Shown piece by piece: positions 946 through 8,760 of a DNA stretch of 62,625 nucleotides. The translations under genes and the position numbers were made by a program. A model generated the notes under the pieces. The model was not told where the DNA came from. It saw only the letters and a program-made list of their open reading frames with translations, and searched no databases. Position 1 is the stretch's first letter. Each line of letters begins with the position of its first letter. This DNA is from Prochlorococcus sp. AG-673-M19. GTDB taxonomy: Bacteria > Cyanobacteriota > Cyanobacteriia > PCC-6307 > Cyanobiaceae. Location: the NCBI GenBank assembly GCA_003211115.1, contig QCTP01000003.1, positions 1 to 62,625 of the forward strand, given 5' to 3'.

Positions 946-2631
946 ATGAATTTTGCGTTTTATTTTTTCATAATAGTTCAAATTTTAAACTCTCTGGGTG
1001 TATTTGCAGAAATAGTTAAAAAAGATTCTTCTGAATTTAATTCAATTAAGTGGGAAAAGGTAAAAAAAAATAAACAAAAACCACTAAAAAAGATTATTTG
1101 GAAATCTTACAAAGCAGACGAAAATTATTTTAAAAATGAAAATGATAAAGGTTCTCAGTTTGCGGGGGGCGAAGCTACGTGGATGGAGCCTCCAACTTGG
1201 CGCAATCGCATCTTGCGGTTTTCCTTTGAAGAAATTGATATGCCAGATGCTGGAGAACACATGGGTTTGTACAGTATAGGAGCGTACGATCGACTAAACC
1301 CTTGGCTTTACGGTGGCATCACTCTTTACGGTGCCGCGACTGGACAGCGTGGCGGTTTCTTTACTGGTGGCTATACCTTGGGCGTGGAAAGTCAGTTAAC
1401 TGGTAACTTGATACTCGATGCGGGAGGTTATGTGGGTGCTGGGGGCGGTGGTGCCGCGGCGCAAGGAGGAGGGTTAATGATCCGCCCCCATATTGGTCTC
1501 AAATACGATTTTAGTTGGAGCGCACTGGGCCTAAATTATTCTTACTTAGACTTCCCTAACGGAGATATTTCTAGCGATGCAATTGCGCTTTCGTTGGATA
1601 TTCCTTTCAGTTCACCGACACTCAATTGGGATGATGATGGACTGACTGTGGCCGATTACTTTGGAGCTGACCTGAGCAATTTGAGCCGCCACCGATCGCA
1701 CCTAGCAGCACGCTTTCGCACCTATTCTCCTAGCAATAGCAGTAAAACCACCTCCGGCGGGTCGCTTGATGATTCATTAGGTCTAGTCGGTGTAGAGTAC
1801 GCTTACTTTCTTGATGAAAACTGGTTTACTACCTTTGAAACTGCAGGTGCGGTATCAGGTGGAGTAGGAGGGTACGCTGAACTTTTAGCCGGGTTAGGCT
1901 ATCGACTCCCCCTAACCAAAAACAATCGTCTAGCCCTACTCCCCGCCCTAACTATCGGCGGCTCTGGTGGCGGAGCGGTCGAAACCGGCGGAGGATTTGT
2001 TAGCCGAGCAAATTTAGGATTGGAATACAGAATTTATCCTGATTTCAGTCTAATTATCGACGGAGGCTATCTCACAGCCCCAGATGGAAATTTTGATATT
2101 CAATATGTCGGTTTAAATTTGGCATACGTAATGGAAACCTTTGCTCAGGATCAAAAGGGAGCTCCCTTAAGGGAAAAAGATCTTATACAAACTAATAAAT
2201 GGCGCTTTCGTCCAGCTCACCAATGGTATTTTGATGCACAACGTAAGGGAGGCTCTTCACGGGATATGCAACTTTTGGGAGGTAAAATTGACTGGATGGG
2301 AGGAGATTGGTGGTACCTTACGGGACAAGGGTTAAGTGCTTATAGAGGAGGAGCCGGTGGCTATTCAGAGGGACACTGGGGTTTAGGAGTTCTCAGCCCG
2401 AGCTGGAAGGCCTGGCAACTCTATGGAGAAATGCTCATAGGTGCCGGAGGGGGAGGAGGTATTGATAGCGGTAGCGCTTTATTGTACAAACCGAGTGTCG
2501 GCTTAGAGTACAATCTAAATAAGGATTTCAGCCTTCAAACTGGTTTAGGAAAAGTGATTTCTAAAGAAGGTAATCTGGATGCCAATACCTTGGACGTTAG
2601 TCTGGTTTGGCGTTTTGGGACTCCAAAATAA
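946..2631 (+). CDS. three-module glycine-rich, probable outer-membrane beta-barrel protein
   Basis: The 561-residue protein has an N-terminal hydrophobic segment (residues 3-20) resembling a signal peptide and a Lys-rich linker (24-70). It then has three tandem modules of about 103 residues starting near Trp120, Trp293 and Trp456. Each module contains a GG-x-GGY/F motif, a glycine cluster such as GAGGGG, then GG, then GL(E/K)Y and DFS, and ends in alternating hydrophobic strands; the last strand ends VWRF. This pattern suits a porin-like or surface beta-barrel protein. By eye, the DNA from about 1150 onward is far more GC-rich than the first 200 bases and the neighbours, suggesting transfer of the core onto a native-looking AT-rich leader. 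I recognise no named family, and the function is unknown. A terminator follows at 2646-2701. Confidence 0.8.
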   Translation: MNFAFYFFIIVQILNSLGVFAEIVKKDSSEFNSIKWEKVKKNKQKPLKKIIWKSYKADENYFKNENDKGSQFAGGEATWMEPPTWRNRILRFSFEEIDMPDAGEHMGLYSIGAYDRLNPWLYGGITLYGAATGQRGGFFTGGYTLGVESQLTGNLILDAGGYVGAGGGGAAAQGGGLMIRPHIGLKYDFSWSALGLNYSYLDFPNGDISSDAIALSLDIPFSSPTLNWDDDGLTVADYFGADLSNLSRHRSHLAARFRTYSPSNSSKTTSGGSLDDSLGLVGVEYAYFLDENWFTTFETAGAVSGGVGGYAELLAGLGYRLPLTKNNRLALLPALTIGGSGGGAVETGGGFVSRANLGLEYRIYPDFSLIIDGGYLTAPDGNFDIQYVGLNLAYVMETFAQDQKGAPLREKDLIQTNKWRFRPAHQWYFDAQRKGGSSRDMQLLGGKIDWMGGDWWYLTGQGLSAYRGGAGGYSEGHWGLGVLSPSWKAWQLYGEMLIGAGGGGGIDSGSALLYKPSVGLEYNLNKDFSLQTGLGKVISKEGNLDANTLDVSLVWRFGTPK

Positions 2632-4367: not shown

Positions 4368-5849
4368 ATGAAAGGTTTTGGAGATAAAAAAACAAAAAGG
4401 AAAAGAATTGTTTCAAATGAAAATAAGAATGCAAACAATGAAAAGTTAATTAAAAAGGCATTTCAACTTCAAGCAAAAGGGGAAAAGATAGAGGCAGCAA
4501 AATATTATTTGTATCTTATTAAAAATGGAGTGGAGGATTATAGAGTTTTTTCCAATTATGGAGCATTCCTGAAAGAAATTGGAAAATATAAAGAAGCAGA
4601 GATCGAACTTAAGAAAGCAATTAAATTAAATCCTAAATATGCCAATGCTTACTTCAATATTGCAGGTTTGTACATTAGTAAGAGAAAATTTTTAAAAGCA
4701 GAAATTTATCTCAGAAACGCAATCGAAATTAAATCAGATTTTGCTATTGCGCATTACAACCTTGGATTTATATTGCAAGATCAAGGTAAATTGCAGGAGG
4801 CAAAATCACATATTCGAAATTCTCTTGAAATTGAGCCTCAATTAACTAATGCCTACTGGTCACTATCAACTTTGCCTGAAACTGATAGAGATCAAAAATG
4901 GCAAAATCAACTTTTTTCCAAAAGTATTTTAAAGAATAAAAATAATACAGAGCTAGTGAATATTTTTTTTGCAAGAGCAAATATTCTTCATAAAAAAAGT
5001 AAATACAAAGAAAGTGCAGAGAATCTATCAAAAGCAAATAATCTTAAACTTAGTATGTATAAATCTGAGGCAAACATTCTAATTAAAAAAACTAATAAAT
5101 TAAAAATTTCCTCAAATAACTTTCAAAGAAATTATCAAATAATCCCAAATTATCCAATATGTATTTTTATTGTTGGACTTCCTAGATGTGGTTCTACTTT
5201 AGTTGAATCTATTTTAAGTTTAAATTCTCAAGTTAGTGATCTTGGTGAGGTTAATATTTTTGAAGAATCATATAGAGAATATATTCAAGCTGATAAGAAA
5301 GTAAATCTTGCTGATATATATAAGAAAAAAACAACAATTTCTAATAATAAATCAAAAATAACAACTAATAAATGGTTATTTAATTATCAATACGCGGGTA
5401 TAATTTTGAATGCCATTCCTAATGCAAAAATAATTCATTGTTATAGAAATCCTTTAGATAATATTCTTTCAATTTATCGAGCTCATTTCACTACAGGTAA
5501 TTCATTCTCTTCTTCTTTAATTGATTGTGCGGAGGTTTATTCTAATCAAGAAGAAATTATGAAAACTTATAAACAAGAGTTTAGATCTAAAATATATGAC
5601 TTAAATTACGATGAATTAGTAACTAACCCTTTAAAAGAAATAAAATCTTTAATCAAATGGTTGAACTGGGAATGGAATGACACTTACTTATCCCCACATT
5701 TAAATAAACGCTCGGTATTTACACGAAGTAATGTTGAAATTAGATCGCCAATTAGTTCAAAGTCTGTTGGAGGGTGGGAAAACTACAAAGATATGCTCAA
5801 ACCTGCTTTTGAAATATTATTTAAAAAAGATAAATATAAAAACTTATAA
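4368..5849 (+). CDS. TPR-repeat protein with C-terminal sulfotransferase domain
   Basis: The 493-residue protein has a basic N-terminus, then about four TPR units (residues 28-165, for example the stretches around NAYFNIAGLY and AIAHYNLGFIL), a linker, and a PAPS-dependent sulfotransferase domain. The 5'-phosphosulfate loop is at about 265-280 (FIVGLPRCGSTLVES) and the 3'-phosphate-binding segment at about 354-370 (HCYRNPLDNILSIYR). The expected role is moving sulfate from PAPS to a sugar, lipid or protein acceptor; the acceptor is unknown. TPR-sulfotransferases are common in picocyanobacterial genomic islands and are thought to modify cell-surface molecules. A perfect 8-bp hairpin follows the stop. 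Confidence 0.88.
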   Translation: MKGFGDKKTKRKRIVSNENKNANNEKLIKKAFQLQAKGEKIEAAKYYLYLIKNGVEDYRVFSNYGAFLKEIGKYKEAEIELKKAIKLNPKYANAYFNIAGLYISKRKFLKAEIYLRNAIEIKSDFAIAHYNLGFILQDQGKLQEAKSHIRNSLEIEPQLTNAYWSLSTLPETDRDQKWQNQLFSKSILKNKNNTELVNIFFARANILHKKSKYKESAENLSKANNLKLSMYKSEANILIKKTNKLKISSNNFQRNYQIIPNYPICIFIVGLPRCGSTLVESILSLNSQVSDLGEVNIFEESYREYIQADKKVNLADIYKKKTTISNNKSKITTNKWLFNYQYAGIILNAIPNAKIIHCYRNPLDNILSIYRAHFTTGNSFSSSLIDCAEVYSNQEEIMKTYKQEFRSKIYDLNYDELVTNPLKEIKSLIKWLNWEWNDTYLSPHLNKRSVFTRSNVEIRSPISSKSVGGWENYKDMLKPAFEILFKKDKYKNL

Positions 5850-5858
5850 CTTAAGCTC

Positions 5859-5880
5859 TCACAAAAACTTCATTTTGTGA
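5859..5880 (+). terminator. perfect 8-bp hairpin after the sulfotransferase gene
   Basis: The arms tcacaaaa (5859-5866) and ttttgtga (5873-5880) close a 6-nt loop 9 nt after the stop codon. The following sequence is T-rich but not a pure T-run, so termination efficiency is uncertain. Confidence 0.5.
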
Positions 5881-6261
5881 TTACTTAATTATTCCTAAAA
5901 AAAGGGACTTTATTTACCATACCTCAATGAAAAAATTAATTAAGCGCCAATTAAGTTACCTATAGAACTAACCCAAGATTTCACTTAATACTAAAAAGTT
6001 TTGTTATAAAAATTTGAGTATTTAAAATAAATCTCTAGTAAATACTTAAGATTTGGTTTCAACTTATTTTTTAAGTATTGAAATTAATAACTTTATAAAG
6101 CTTTAAATCAAAAATAAATTTCCTTAGCTAAATAATTACCTATAAACACTAATAACTGTATAGGTTAAAAAACTGGCATAGGAATTAAAATTATGTATTG
6201 GTTGATACTTGATTTTATATGTATTCATACATTAATATGAAGTGTACTTCAAATTTCGTGT
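5881..6261. other. porin upstream region, no gene seen
   Basis: No ORF is supported. This 0.38-kb AT-rich leader presumably holds the promoter of the first porin gene. Two short inverted repeats lie near its 3' end: gtat (6195-6198) with atac (6205-6208), and atgta (6219-6223) with tacat (6228-6232). No regulator site can be named with confidence. Confidence 0.4.
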
Positions 6262-6267
6262 GAGGAA
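6262..6267 (+). promoter_or_regulatory. ribosome binding site that sets the porin 1 start
   Basis: GAGGAA lies 4 nt before ATG 6272. The second porin has the same leader, gtgtgaggaa, with GAGGAA at 7586-7591, 5 nt before ATG 7597. This favours 6272 over the in-frame ATG at 6242, whose extra ten residues would come before an obvious signal peptide. Confidence 0.8.
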
Positions 6268-6271
6268 ATTT

Positions 6272-7435
6272 ATGAAGCTTTTCAAAAGCTTACTCATAGC
6301 TCCTGCAACATTAGGTTTATTAGCCCCAATGACTGCAACAGCTAATGAGTTAAATATCAATGAAGTCTCTAACTACTCTTCATCTGAAGAAGTTGAGAAC
6401 ATTGGTGAATTCAATCAAAAAGAACTTGCTATCACTAATAGTCGTGTTGACGGCTTGGAAGCAAGAATGAACAATTTTGAAGCCGGTAGCTTCTCAGAAA
6501 CAACAACCGCATCTTTTGGCCTTGATATGTATCTTGGTGCATTAGATGATGACGACTCAACAGATGATGATGCTGTAATGGCTGGTTATAGCTTGGGTAT
6601 AGGTCTAAATACAAGTTTTACAGGTTCAGATTCACTAGATATCGCTATAGACGCTGGTGTTAGTGGTGAAGGTATTGCTGAATTAGACGGAAACACAAAC
6701 GGCGACACACTTAAAGTTGACGGAGTTTCTTACACATTCCCACTTGGCGATAGTGCAACAGTTATTGCTGGTATTGATACTGATGGTAGTGCTCTATTCA
6801 CAACAGCTTGTGCATACGGTGGACCTAGTGCAATGCTTGATGATTGTGCAAATGTAAGTGCTGGAATCACTGGTGGTGGAGCAACTGTTGGAGCATCTTA
6901 TGACTTCGGTACTGGATTTACTGCTGCTGTTGGTGCTCAAACAACAGAAGCCGCTGTATTTACTGATGAGTCTGCAGATGCATATGCATTGAACGCAGCT
7001 TATACAGCTGATAATTATGGTGTTTCACTAACATACGGTGTTGTAGAAGGAGCATCCGCAGCAGGAGTTCCTACTCAAGAGGAAAACACATACACTGCTT
7101 TTAACGCTTACTACACTCCTGAAGGAAGTCTTCCATCAGTAAGTGTTGGTTACGAAATAGGTGATTTAGGTGGGGAAGCTAAAACTGTAGATGAAACAAC
7201 AAGTTTCTTTGTCGGTTTATCTTGGGATGAAGTAGGACCAGGAACAGCTGGTGTTGCAGTAGGCCACAGTTCAACTGTTGAAGGTAGCGATGAAGAGTAT
7301 GAGTATGAGGCATACTACTCTTACCCAATAAATGATGGAATGTCTATTACTCCATTAATCTTTACTAAGGACAACGCAACAGCTGGTAAAGATGATACAA
7401 CTGGTGTAATGGTTAAGACATCATTTAGCTTCTAA
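6272..7435 (+). CDS. outer-membrane porin, tandem copy 1
   Basis: The 387-residue protein (from ATG 6272) has a Sec signal peptide (MKLFKSLLIAPATLGLLAP, cleavage near ATANE). Next come an Asn/Glu-rich stretch and a short coiled-coil-like segment (SRVDGLEARMNNFEA). The rest is a beta-strand-rich barrel ending in KTSFSF, with the terminal Phe typical of outer-membrane proteins. It resembles cyanobacterial SLH-type porins with the SLH domain reduced. An acidic run (LDDDDSTDDD) and two Cys (C180, C192), possibly a disulfide, are present. The role is general uptake of small solutes. From 6485 onward it is nearly identical to copy 2, with one coding difference (Glu here, Gln in copy 2). It has its own RBS and terminator. 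Confidence 0.85.
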   Translation: MKLFKSLLIAPATLGLLAPMTATANELNINEVSNYSSSEEVENIGEFNQKELAITNSRVDGLEARMNNFEAGSFSETTTASFGLDMYLGALDDDDSTDDDAVMAGYSLGIGLNTSFTGSDSLDIAIDAGVSGEGIAELDGNTNGDTLKVDGVSYTFPLGDSATVIAGIDTDGSALFTTACAYGGPSAMLDDCANVSAGITGGGATVGASYDFGTGFTAAVGAQTTEAAVFTDESADAYALNAAYTADNYGVSLTYGVVEGASAAGVPTQEENTYTAFNAYYTPEGSLPSVSVGYEIGDLGGEAKTVDETTSFFVGLSWDEVGPGTAGVAVGHSSTVEGSDEEYEYEAYYSYPINDGMSITPLIFTKDNATAGKDDTTGVMVKTSFSF

Positions 7436-7596: not shown

Positions 7597-8760
7597 ATGA
7601 AACTTTTTAAGAGTTTACTAGTAGCTCCTGCAGCCTTGGGTCTATTAGCACCCATCTCTGCAAGTGCTAGTGAGGTAAATTTAAACGAGATTTCTAATTA
7701 CTCTGATAATGAGAGTATAGAATTTGCTAATTCGTTTAGTAATGATGATTTAAATGATAAAACCTTACTTGCTGGTGGAGAAGGATTAGTTGAAGATCAT
7801 AGTCATGATGGTAGCTTCTCAGAAACAACAACCGCATCTTTTGGCCTTGATATGTATCTTGGTGCATTAGATGATGACGACTCAACAGATGATGATGCTG
7901 TAATGGCTGGTTATAGCTTGGGTATAGGTCTAAATACAAGTTTTACAGGTTCAGATTCACTAGATATCGCTATAGACGCTGGTGTTAGTGGTGAAGGTAT
8001 TGCTGAATTAGACGGAAACACAAACGGCGACACACTTAAAGTTGACGGAGTTTCTTACACATTCCCACTTGGCGATAGTGCAACAGTTATTGCTGGTATT
8101 GATACTGATGGTAGTGCTCTATTCACAACAGCTTGTGCATACGGTGGACCTAGTGCAATGCTTGATGATTGTGCAAATGTAAGTGCTGGAATCACTGGTG
8201 GTGGAGCAACTGTTGGAGCATCTTATGACTTCGGTACTGGATTTACTGCTGCTGTTGGTGCTCAAACAACAGAAGCCGCTGTATTTACTGATGAGTCTGC
8301 AGATGCATATGCATTGAACGCAGCTTATACAGCTGATAATTATGGTGTTTCACTAACATACGGTGTTGTAGAAGGAGCATCCGCAGCAGGAGTTCCTACT
8401 CAAGAGGAAAACACATACACTGCTTTTAACGCTTACTACACTCCTGAAGGAAGTCTTCCATCAGTAAGTGTTGGTTACGAAATAGGTGATTTAGGTGGGG
8501 AAGCTAAAACTGTAGATGAAACAACAAGTTTCTTTGTCGGTTTATCTTGGGATGAAGTAGGACCAGGAACAGCTGGTGTTGCAGTAGGCCACAGTTCAAC
8601 TGTTGAAGGTAGCGATGAAGAGTATCAGTATGAGGCATACTACTCTTACCCAATAAATGATGGAATGTCTATTACTCCATTAATCTTTACTAAGGACAAC
8701 GCAACAGCTGGTAAAGATGATACAACTGGTGTAATGGTTAAGACATCATTTAGCTTCTAA
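7597..8760 (+). CDS. outer-membrane porin, tandem copy 2
   Basis: This 387-residue protein has the same length as copy 1. The signal peptide is similar but not identical (MKLFKSLLVAPAALGLLAP, cleavage near ASASE). Residues of about 27-71 differ strongly from copy 1: the coiled-coil-like segment is replaced by an acidic, Gly- and His-containing stretch (GGEGLVEDHSHDG). From Gly72 on, the barrel is identical to copy 1 except Gln for Glu encoded at 8626. RBS GAGGAA lies at 7586-7591. The 161-nt spacer contains the copy 1 terminator, so each gene is probably its own transcript. Recent duplication or ongoing gene conversion is the simplest explanation. Confidence 0.85.
   Translation: MKLFKSLLVAPAALGLLAPISASASEVNLNEISNYSDNESIEFANSFSNDDLNDKTLLAGGEGLVEDHSHDGSFSETTTASFGLDMYLGALDDDDSTDDDAVMAGYSLGIGLNTSFTGSDSLDIAIDAGVSGEGIAELDGNTNGDTLKVDGVSYTFPLGDSATVIAGIDTDGSALFTTACAYGGPSAMLDDCANVSAGITGGGATVGASYDFGTGFTAAVGAQTTEAAVFTDESADAYALNAAYTADNYGVSLTYGVVEGASAAGVPTQEENTYTAFNAYYTPEGSLPSVSVGYEIGDLGGEAKTVDETTSFFVGLSWDEVGPGTAGVAVGHSSTVEGSDEEYQYEAYYSYPINDGMSITPLIFTKDNATAGKDDTTGVMVKTSFSF

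Follow-up and report, generated by a model that had tools for sequence, protein, structure and literature searches.

A three-module Prochlorococcus protein, predicted to form tandem eight-stranded barrels, is genetically linked to polysaccharide export

We find that an open reading frame of 561 amino acids in Prochlorococcus (positions 946–2631, + strand) encodes a protein, here called T, made of three homologous modules that are each predicted to fold as a closed eight-stranded barrel, and that T is linked genetically to polysaccharide export. The gene lies in the window, by which we mean the whole analysed stretch of 62,625 nucleotides, which belongs to contig 3 of a 1.08 Mb genome that is 66.7% complete. 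What stands firmly here is that the modules are homologous and that T is genetically linked to export; the fold into three barrels is predicted, and the role in binding discussed below is one that we infer.

T begins with a hydrophobic N-terminus (residues ∼1–21; 946–1008), which from its sequence is a probable Sec signal peptide; AlphaFold models residues 2–29 as a helix with low confidence. A region of native type follows (residues ∼22–83; 1009–1194) and carries a two-Trp motif, IKWEKV...KKIIWKSY, with Trp36 and Trp52; residues 24–86 have a pLDDT under 50 and are predicted to be disordered. The remainder of the protein comprises three putative barrels of eight predicted strands each, barrel 1 (residues 84–225; 1195–1620), barrel 2 (residues 248–399; 1687–2142) and barrel 3 (residues 415–561; 2188–2628), joined by poorly conserved linkers of 22 residues (226–247; 1621–1686) and 15 residues (400–414; 2143–2187), all on the + strand. 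Barrel 3 ends in LVWRFGTPK, confirming the C-terminal VWRF that the first-pass annotation had likened to the ends of outer-membrane barrels.

The similarity among the three modules, which that annotation had described, is far above chance. Using module profiles built from 41 sequences (window included, mostly Prochlorococcus), hhalign gave E values of 6e-11 for modules 2 and 3, 3e-7 for modules 1 and 3 and 6e-6 for modules 1 and 2. The corresponding scores are 67.9, 46.8 and 39.7, compared to means of 13–14 for column shuffles and scores of 15–20 for reversed profiles, and the real score was reached by 0/150, 0/150 and 1/150 shuffles, respectively. Alignment of the modules yields one common pattern, in which module 3 is 24–28% identical to modules 1 and 2. 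The repeating unit is ∼145 residues, not 103 as had been claimed, and the Trp residues used as marks (Trp120, Trp293 and Trp456, all confirmed) fall where strand 3 of each unit begins or just beside it. The proposed order of landmarks is correct, but the landmarks are not exact in every module: GLKY or GLEY (184, 358 and 519) and DFS (188, 366 and 527) recur in all three, but GGxGGY is found at 305 and 468 with RGGFF in its place in module 1, and GAGGGG at 164 and 499 with GGSGGG in its place in module 2. A chance likeness of Gly-rich modules is ruled out by the shuffles, though 1 of the 150 beat modules 1 versus 2.

No named family in the libraries searched accounts for T, in agreement with the first-pass annotation. 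The protein had no match to Pfam or NCBIfam models (E ≤ 1) and no PHROG match at E ≤ 0.01, and no PDB sequence matched either the protein (E ≤ 1) or a 21-row family profile (E ≤ 10). Among the 21 family members, 4 match OMP_b-brl (PF13505) at E ≤ 0.1 (best 2.3e-6); L130 scores 27.4 bits against the Pfam gathering cut-off of 28.7, and L077 scores 21.2 bits; the window protein itself has no OMP_b-brl match. Weak matches were also obtained to DUF481 in 2 of the 21 (best E 0.0009) and to NCBIfam OMP_myx_plus in 1 (E 0.012).

The AlphaFold model of full-length T, based on 19 sequences, is weak (pLDDT 60.9, pTM 0.44), and contains 24 strands, eight per module; module 3 modeled alone reaches a pLDDT of 86.7 and a pTM of 0.80. 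Foldseek returned 1235 matches to T (E ≤ 10), and the 50 listed are porins and TonB-dependent receptors, mostly aligned over ∼500–650 columns. Because the rmsd of these 50 is 18–31 Å and their query-length TM-score is under 0.2 (0.14–0.19), they represent no real superposition on large barrels. When 997 of the Foldseek candidate chains were re-ranked with VIA-align, a comparison whose scope is the families that Foldseek returned, each module gave its own, nearly full-length match to small barrels. Module 1 aligned to NspA (Z 16.7, rmsd 2.9 Å over 138 residues) and to a designed 8-strand barrel (Z 16.5), module 2 to the N-terminal barrel of OprF (Z 18.0, rmsd 2.1 Å over 128/135) and to OmpA (Z 16.7), and module 3 to Legionella porin III (Z 17.1) and OmpW (Z 16.2). 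Similar results were obtained with the model of module 3 alone (Z 17.0 for the OprF N-terminal domain, 16.0 for OmpW). Among the 50 VIA-align matches listed, three cross from one module to another, with Z 9.0 (113 aligned), 8.3 (118) and 7.7 (225, rmsd 19.6 Å), and none of the three is a transmembrane barrel.

We consider it highly likely, based on these models, that T forms three tandem closed 8-stranded barrels, which would sit in the outer membrane. Of the options that the first-pass annotation had left standing, three small barrels are thus favored, while a single large barrel and a surface fibre are disfavored. The predicted modules have the closed 8-stranded fold of OMP_b-brl (Z 16–18 versus solved barrels), and T as predicted has at least two separate β-barrel domains in one chain, which places it among the multi-barrel outer-membrane proteins, a class for which Solan et al. 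2021 is said to be the founding paper.

Natural forms of T with a single barrel occur in two Prochlorococcus genomes, G004 (L076, 223 aa) and G190 (L077, 231 aa), in which an open frame encodes the N-terminus and module 3 only. The junctions of both 3-to-1 deletions lie at the WRxR that opens modules 1 and 3, and the deletions are clean; barrel 3 is the sole barrel retained. These deletion forms agree with the modules being independent units. In a separate locus (L034, 6001–7688), a frameshift interrupts T within the Gly-rich part of module 3, either as a sequencing error or because the copy is a pseudogene.

In the barrels of T, the presumed surface loops are better conserved than the strands or the periplasmic turns. 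With 15 of the 21 family rows (near-duplicates removed) and the outward side assumed from a periplasmic N-terminus, conservation is 0.64 for these loops, 0.55 for strands and 0.41 for periplasmic turns; the loops exceed the turns (p 3e-8) and the strands (p 2e-4), and the difference between loops and turns persists at non-Gly positions (p 1e-5). The invariant columns of the 21-row alignment are Gly together with Ala302, Thr347, Tyr428, Ala465 and Tyr473, and none is Ser, His, Asp or Glu.

The link to export comes from both gene order and co-occurrence. Among 19 loci outside Prochlorococcus (L032, L035 and L114–L130), an outer-membrane polysaccharide exporter (OPX) gene lies within ∼6 kb of T in seven (L035, L114, L115, L117, L118, L119 and L125), and in all seven the OPX protein has Pfam Poly_export and SLBB domains. 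The wzb, T, wza and wzc genes follow one another on one strand in L125; T lies in a glycan cluster in L116, with an SLBB protein of the same type ∼16 kb upstream whose gene is cut by the end of the stretch, and T adjoins a Glycos_transf_4 gene in L123. The remaining 12 of the 19 have no OPX gene within the examined flank, and several of these contigs are short. Among the Prochlorococcus loci inspected, T has a Wzz-domain protein and OPX as neighbors in only one genome (L031/L144); in G106 (L143), the genes for protein P (described below), OPX, Wzz and a ManC-type protein are consecutive. In the 115 Prochlorococcus genomes that are at least 85% complete, OPX (PF02563) is present in 23/23 genomes with T and in 56/92 without it (Fisher p 8e-5, relatedness ignored), and also in 21/25 P genomes in that range. 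The window genome, in which one third is missing and no OPX match was found, was left out of this test because it is incomplete. As a separate observation, the T homologue in L035, which adjoins OPX and Glycos_transf_4 genes, carries an N-terminal part of ∼260 residues (5209–5997) with weak likeness to LptD_N (E 0.0089) and LptC (E 0.0037).

OPX is thus found in 79 of those 115 genomes, a set without the window's own. This is at odds with the loss of most EPS genes from Prochlorococcus described in excerpts of PMC4594306, and suggests that Prochlorococcus often retains an OPX route, the outer-membrane part of which may be swapped between lineages.

We propose that T is a multi-barrel outer-membrane accessory of Wzx/Wzy-type export with an OPX exporter. 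That T is an accessory of polysaccharide export is probable, and the full explanation also seems to us a fairly likely one. T would consist of a signal peptide, a periplasmic two-Trp tail of ∼60 residues that docks it to the export machinery, and three tandem transmembrane barrels on short linkers; the OPX protein (Wza/SLBB) would export the polymer. Eight-stranded barrels should be too narrow for a sugar chain, and because they have no wide open pore, we favor T as a holder or organizer at the exit over T as a conduit. Together, the conserved loops L2 and L3, presumed to face outward in each barrel, may form a patch for binding the exported glycan, or its lipid anchor, and for holding or organizing it, although we put forward this holding of glycan or anchor only tentatively.

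The main structural alternative is that all 24 strands close into one barrel, like that of LptD or an usher, through which the polysaccharide itself would pass. The strand total fits this alternative, as do the large porins and TonB-dependent receptors among the 50 listed Foldseek matches and the composite exporters of OPX and an 18-stranded barrel described in excerpts of PMC9601211, but those Foldseek matches do not superimpose on T, each module fits closed 8-stranded barrels by itself, module 3 in isolation is modeled confidently and fits them too, and single-module proteins occur in nature; we therefore give very little weight to a single T barrel. A lateral gate like that of LptD or GfcD, by which T would transport a lipid-anchored glycan or a lipid of LPS type, would explain the N-terminal extension in L035 and would parallel GfcD, which excerpts of PMC11494523 propose to free lipid anchors sideways. 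It is nevertheless quite improbable, since the extension is found in 1/21 T members, with scores under both curated cut-offs, and the barrels of T match closed ones.

Other alternatives would retain the small barrels and assign them a different function. If T were a general adhesin, phage receptor or small-molecule porin, its link to OPX would be a by-product of islands of surface genes; indeed, T in the window lies near porins and a sulfotransferase, and its neighborhood differs among genomes. We regard this explanation as unlikely, given that in distant bacteria T stands next to OPX, Wzz, Wzb or Wzc genes in an operon-like manner and that P, OPX and Wzz genes form a row; in the particular case of a phage receptor, phage pressure would give variable surface loops, whereas the presumed surface loops of T are conserved. 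T could instead be an enzyme of the outer membrane with lipid A or the glycan as substrate, in keeping with the alignment of its modules to the 8-stranded enzymes PagL (Z 14.9) and PagP (Z 12.1), but proteins that are not enzymes score equally well or higher, and the lack of an invariant Ser, His, Asp or Glu in the 21 rows leaves no shared catalytic triad; an enzymatic T is the alternative in which we place least credence.

The core of T differs in base composition from its surroundings, and the GC-rich, foreign-looking core described in the first-pass annotation is borne out, third codon positions included. The GC3 of the T reading frame, 0.375, is the highest among 46 window ORFs of at least 150 aa (mean 0.199, sd 0.038, T included), and is 0.40 in the core compared to 0.24 in residues 1–83. 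In four-fold codon boxes, the GC3 is 0.40 for the T core, 0.16 for the other window ORFs and 0.07 for Gly/Ala-rich porins; because the four-fold boxes and these porins were compared, the excess goes beyond amino acid composition.

The front end of T, by contrast with its core, is of native type. Both as protein and as DNA, the first ∼75 residues match the beginning of another protein, P, that is unrelated to T beyond this region. P has 607 aa, or 320 aa in the form without its first domain; the remainder of P has no homology to the T core (hhalign probability 1.2). The common region contains two [IVL]xW[EK..] motifs ∼16 residues apart, and this pair is found in 42 of 401 distinct ORFs (at least 150 aa, 56 Prochlorococcus sources), every one of which belongs to T, to P and its relatives or to a third type, R; as the motif was derived from T, P and R proteins, only its absence elsewhere is informative. 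Type R proteins (354–361 aa; L074 704–1768 and L148 2604–3689) have the same two-Trp N-terminus and, by sequence reading, adjoin glycosyltransferase- and sulfotransferase-like ORFs; in Pfam, R had no match in L148 and a chance-level match in L074. The two-Trp tail is not required everywhere, because the strict pattern finds no pair in 11 of 41 full-length T sequences and other N-termini are found in Prochlorococcus (L023, L029) and in close relatives outside it (L032, L035). In G185 (L062/L075), part of the motif region is duplicated, resulting in three Trp motifs.

T also shares chromosomal slots with P and with R. Based on neighbor clustering and gene names assigned by sequence reading, T resides in a psbD-psbC-maf-cobQ slot in 11 of 35 loci, and in nine full P loci, P adjoins the same maf- and cobQ-like genes. 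A slot marked by OTCase and lexA (Pfam) holds T in L031 and L033 and P relatives in L149–L152, while the vicinity of an RNA pseudouridine synthase gene (Pfam) holds T in L004, L005, L025 and L030 and R in L074 and L148. In 200 Prochlorococcus genomes, T is present in 32 (window genome counted) and P in 50, and no genome has both, compared to 8.0 expected (hypergeometric p 4e-5, relatedness ignored). The P list excludes stop-bearing fragments (G021, G138, G133, G078 and G155), copies with the C-terminus only (G119 and G156) and one with the N-terminus only (G055), none of these being a T genome. The T genome G199 retains a 33-codon relic of the end of P beside the cobQ-like gene; the other T genomes match the P profile through the common N-terminus or not at all. 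The shorter P of ∼320 aa, which lacks residues ∼100–380, was seen in G022, G145, G094, G051, G159, G028, G025 and G167 (loci include L067 and L072), and the 607- and ∼320-aa forms are a second change of domain number behind the same N-terminus.

The best explanation for these observations is that the T core was gained horizontally in Prochlorococcus and now mostly stands behind a native N-terminus, replacing P. A broader reading is that picocyanobacteria have an exchangeable cassette in which one two-Trp adaptor would dock mutually exclusive, unrelated barrel-type proteins to the same OPX, namely the triple 8-stranded T, the two-domain P and the third type R. We regard this as conceivable, if somewhat doubtful, and it is weakened because 11 of the 41 T copies lack the strict Trp pair; if true, whole barrels would be gained, lost or replaced horizontally at fixed slots behind a retained adaptor, and the cell would thereby change how its surface polymer is presented.

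A genome scan for T found 35 loci, 32 of them in Prochlorococcus. The T core (residues 84–561), or part of it, is present in 32/200 sampled Prochlorococcus genomes, a count that takes in the window genome, one partial copy and both genomes with a single-module form. T is 73% identical to its homologue in a Gammaproteobacteria MAG (L032) and 68% to that in a Verrucomicrobiota MAG (L035); it is found in 15/229 genomes of the class of L032 (L032's own counted), mostly at full length, in 2/236 of the class of L035, and in 8/386 of a sample of the cyanobacterial phylum, of which two, outside Prochlorococcus, are weak, partial matches (E 4e-6 and 5e-5). In the T tree, Prochlorococcus, L030, L032 and L035 form a 36-row clade with support of 100/100, within which the branching is not resolved; the remainder of the tree is unsure, with several long branches. 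The tree gives no clear pointer to the donor of the core. We considered an origin from phage or plasmids and rejected it, as T had no tblastn match (E ≤ 0.01) among 50,697 phage or 72,556 plasmid records, two scans of viral contigs gave no confirmed T locus, and the PHROG search was negative. The locus L030, filed under a Crocinitomicaceae MAG, has 34% GC, a T that is 78% identical and an N-terminus of Prochlorococcus type; because its composition and sequence are those of Prochlorococcus, it is probably mis-binned.

Both multi-barrel proteins and barrels that partner OPX are kinds already known. According to excerpts of PMC8592465, PMC11494523 and PMC9603273, GfcD is a predicted double barrel encoded beside a set of Wza/Wzb/Wzc type. 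GfcD/YjbH (group 4 capsule, yjbEFGH) resembles T in having several β-barrels in one chain, but in these excerpts GfcD has 12 + 13 predicted strands and a periplasmic middle domain, whereas T has 8 + 8 + 8 and no middle domain; a linked OPX gene, as GfcD/YjbH has, was found for T in 7/19 distant loci and, in Prochlorococcus, in L144, and 0/21 T members match Pfam or NCBIfam models of GfcD/YjbH type at E ≤ 0.1. Wzi, an outer-membrane protein of Wza-type capsule systems, is implicated in capsule organization in excerpts of PMC9603273. Its role is the one proposed for T, but Wzi, a lectin of group 1 capsules, consists of one barrel of 18 strands and a helical plug, and none of the 21 T members matches the Wzi family at E ≤ 0.1. 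Myxococcus EpsX/WzpX, in excerpts of PMC9601211 and PMC9603273, is a dedicated 18-stranded barrel paired with an OPX gene and a proposed conduit, in contrast to the 24 predicted strands of T in three modules. The OprF N-terminal domain, OmpA, OmpW and NspA have the fold predicted for the T modules (Z 16–18), but only one barrel each, and P shares with T the two-Trp N-terminus, the chromosomal slots and the association with OPX, although the rest of its chain is unrelated. The best reading of these analogies is that T would act like Wzi or GfcD/YjbH and belongs to neither.

Apparently new are the triple 8-stranded member, the exchange with unrelated proteins behind a common N-terminus and the natural change in barrel number, none of which appears among the literature matches listed, a search outside which Solan et al. 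2021 falls; the listed papers that bear on the topic are those on GfcD and OPX. Multi-barrel proteins linked to export were previously known, in the excerpts cited above, as double barrels (GfcD/YjbH). The triple-8 architecture is conserved in gammaproteobacteria, verrucomicrobia and Prochlorococcus, and the 3-to-1 deletions offer a simple system in which to ask what barrel number does.

Elsewhere in the window, two tandem porin-like ORFs (6242–7435 and 7597–8760) differ at their 5′ ends and by one DNA mismatch over ∼900 columns, a pattern that suggests gene conversion in the recent past; despite high GC1 and GC2, the two have a low GC3 (0.19–0.22).
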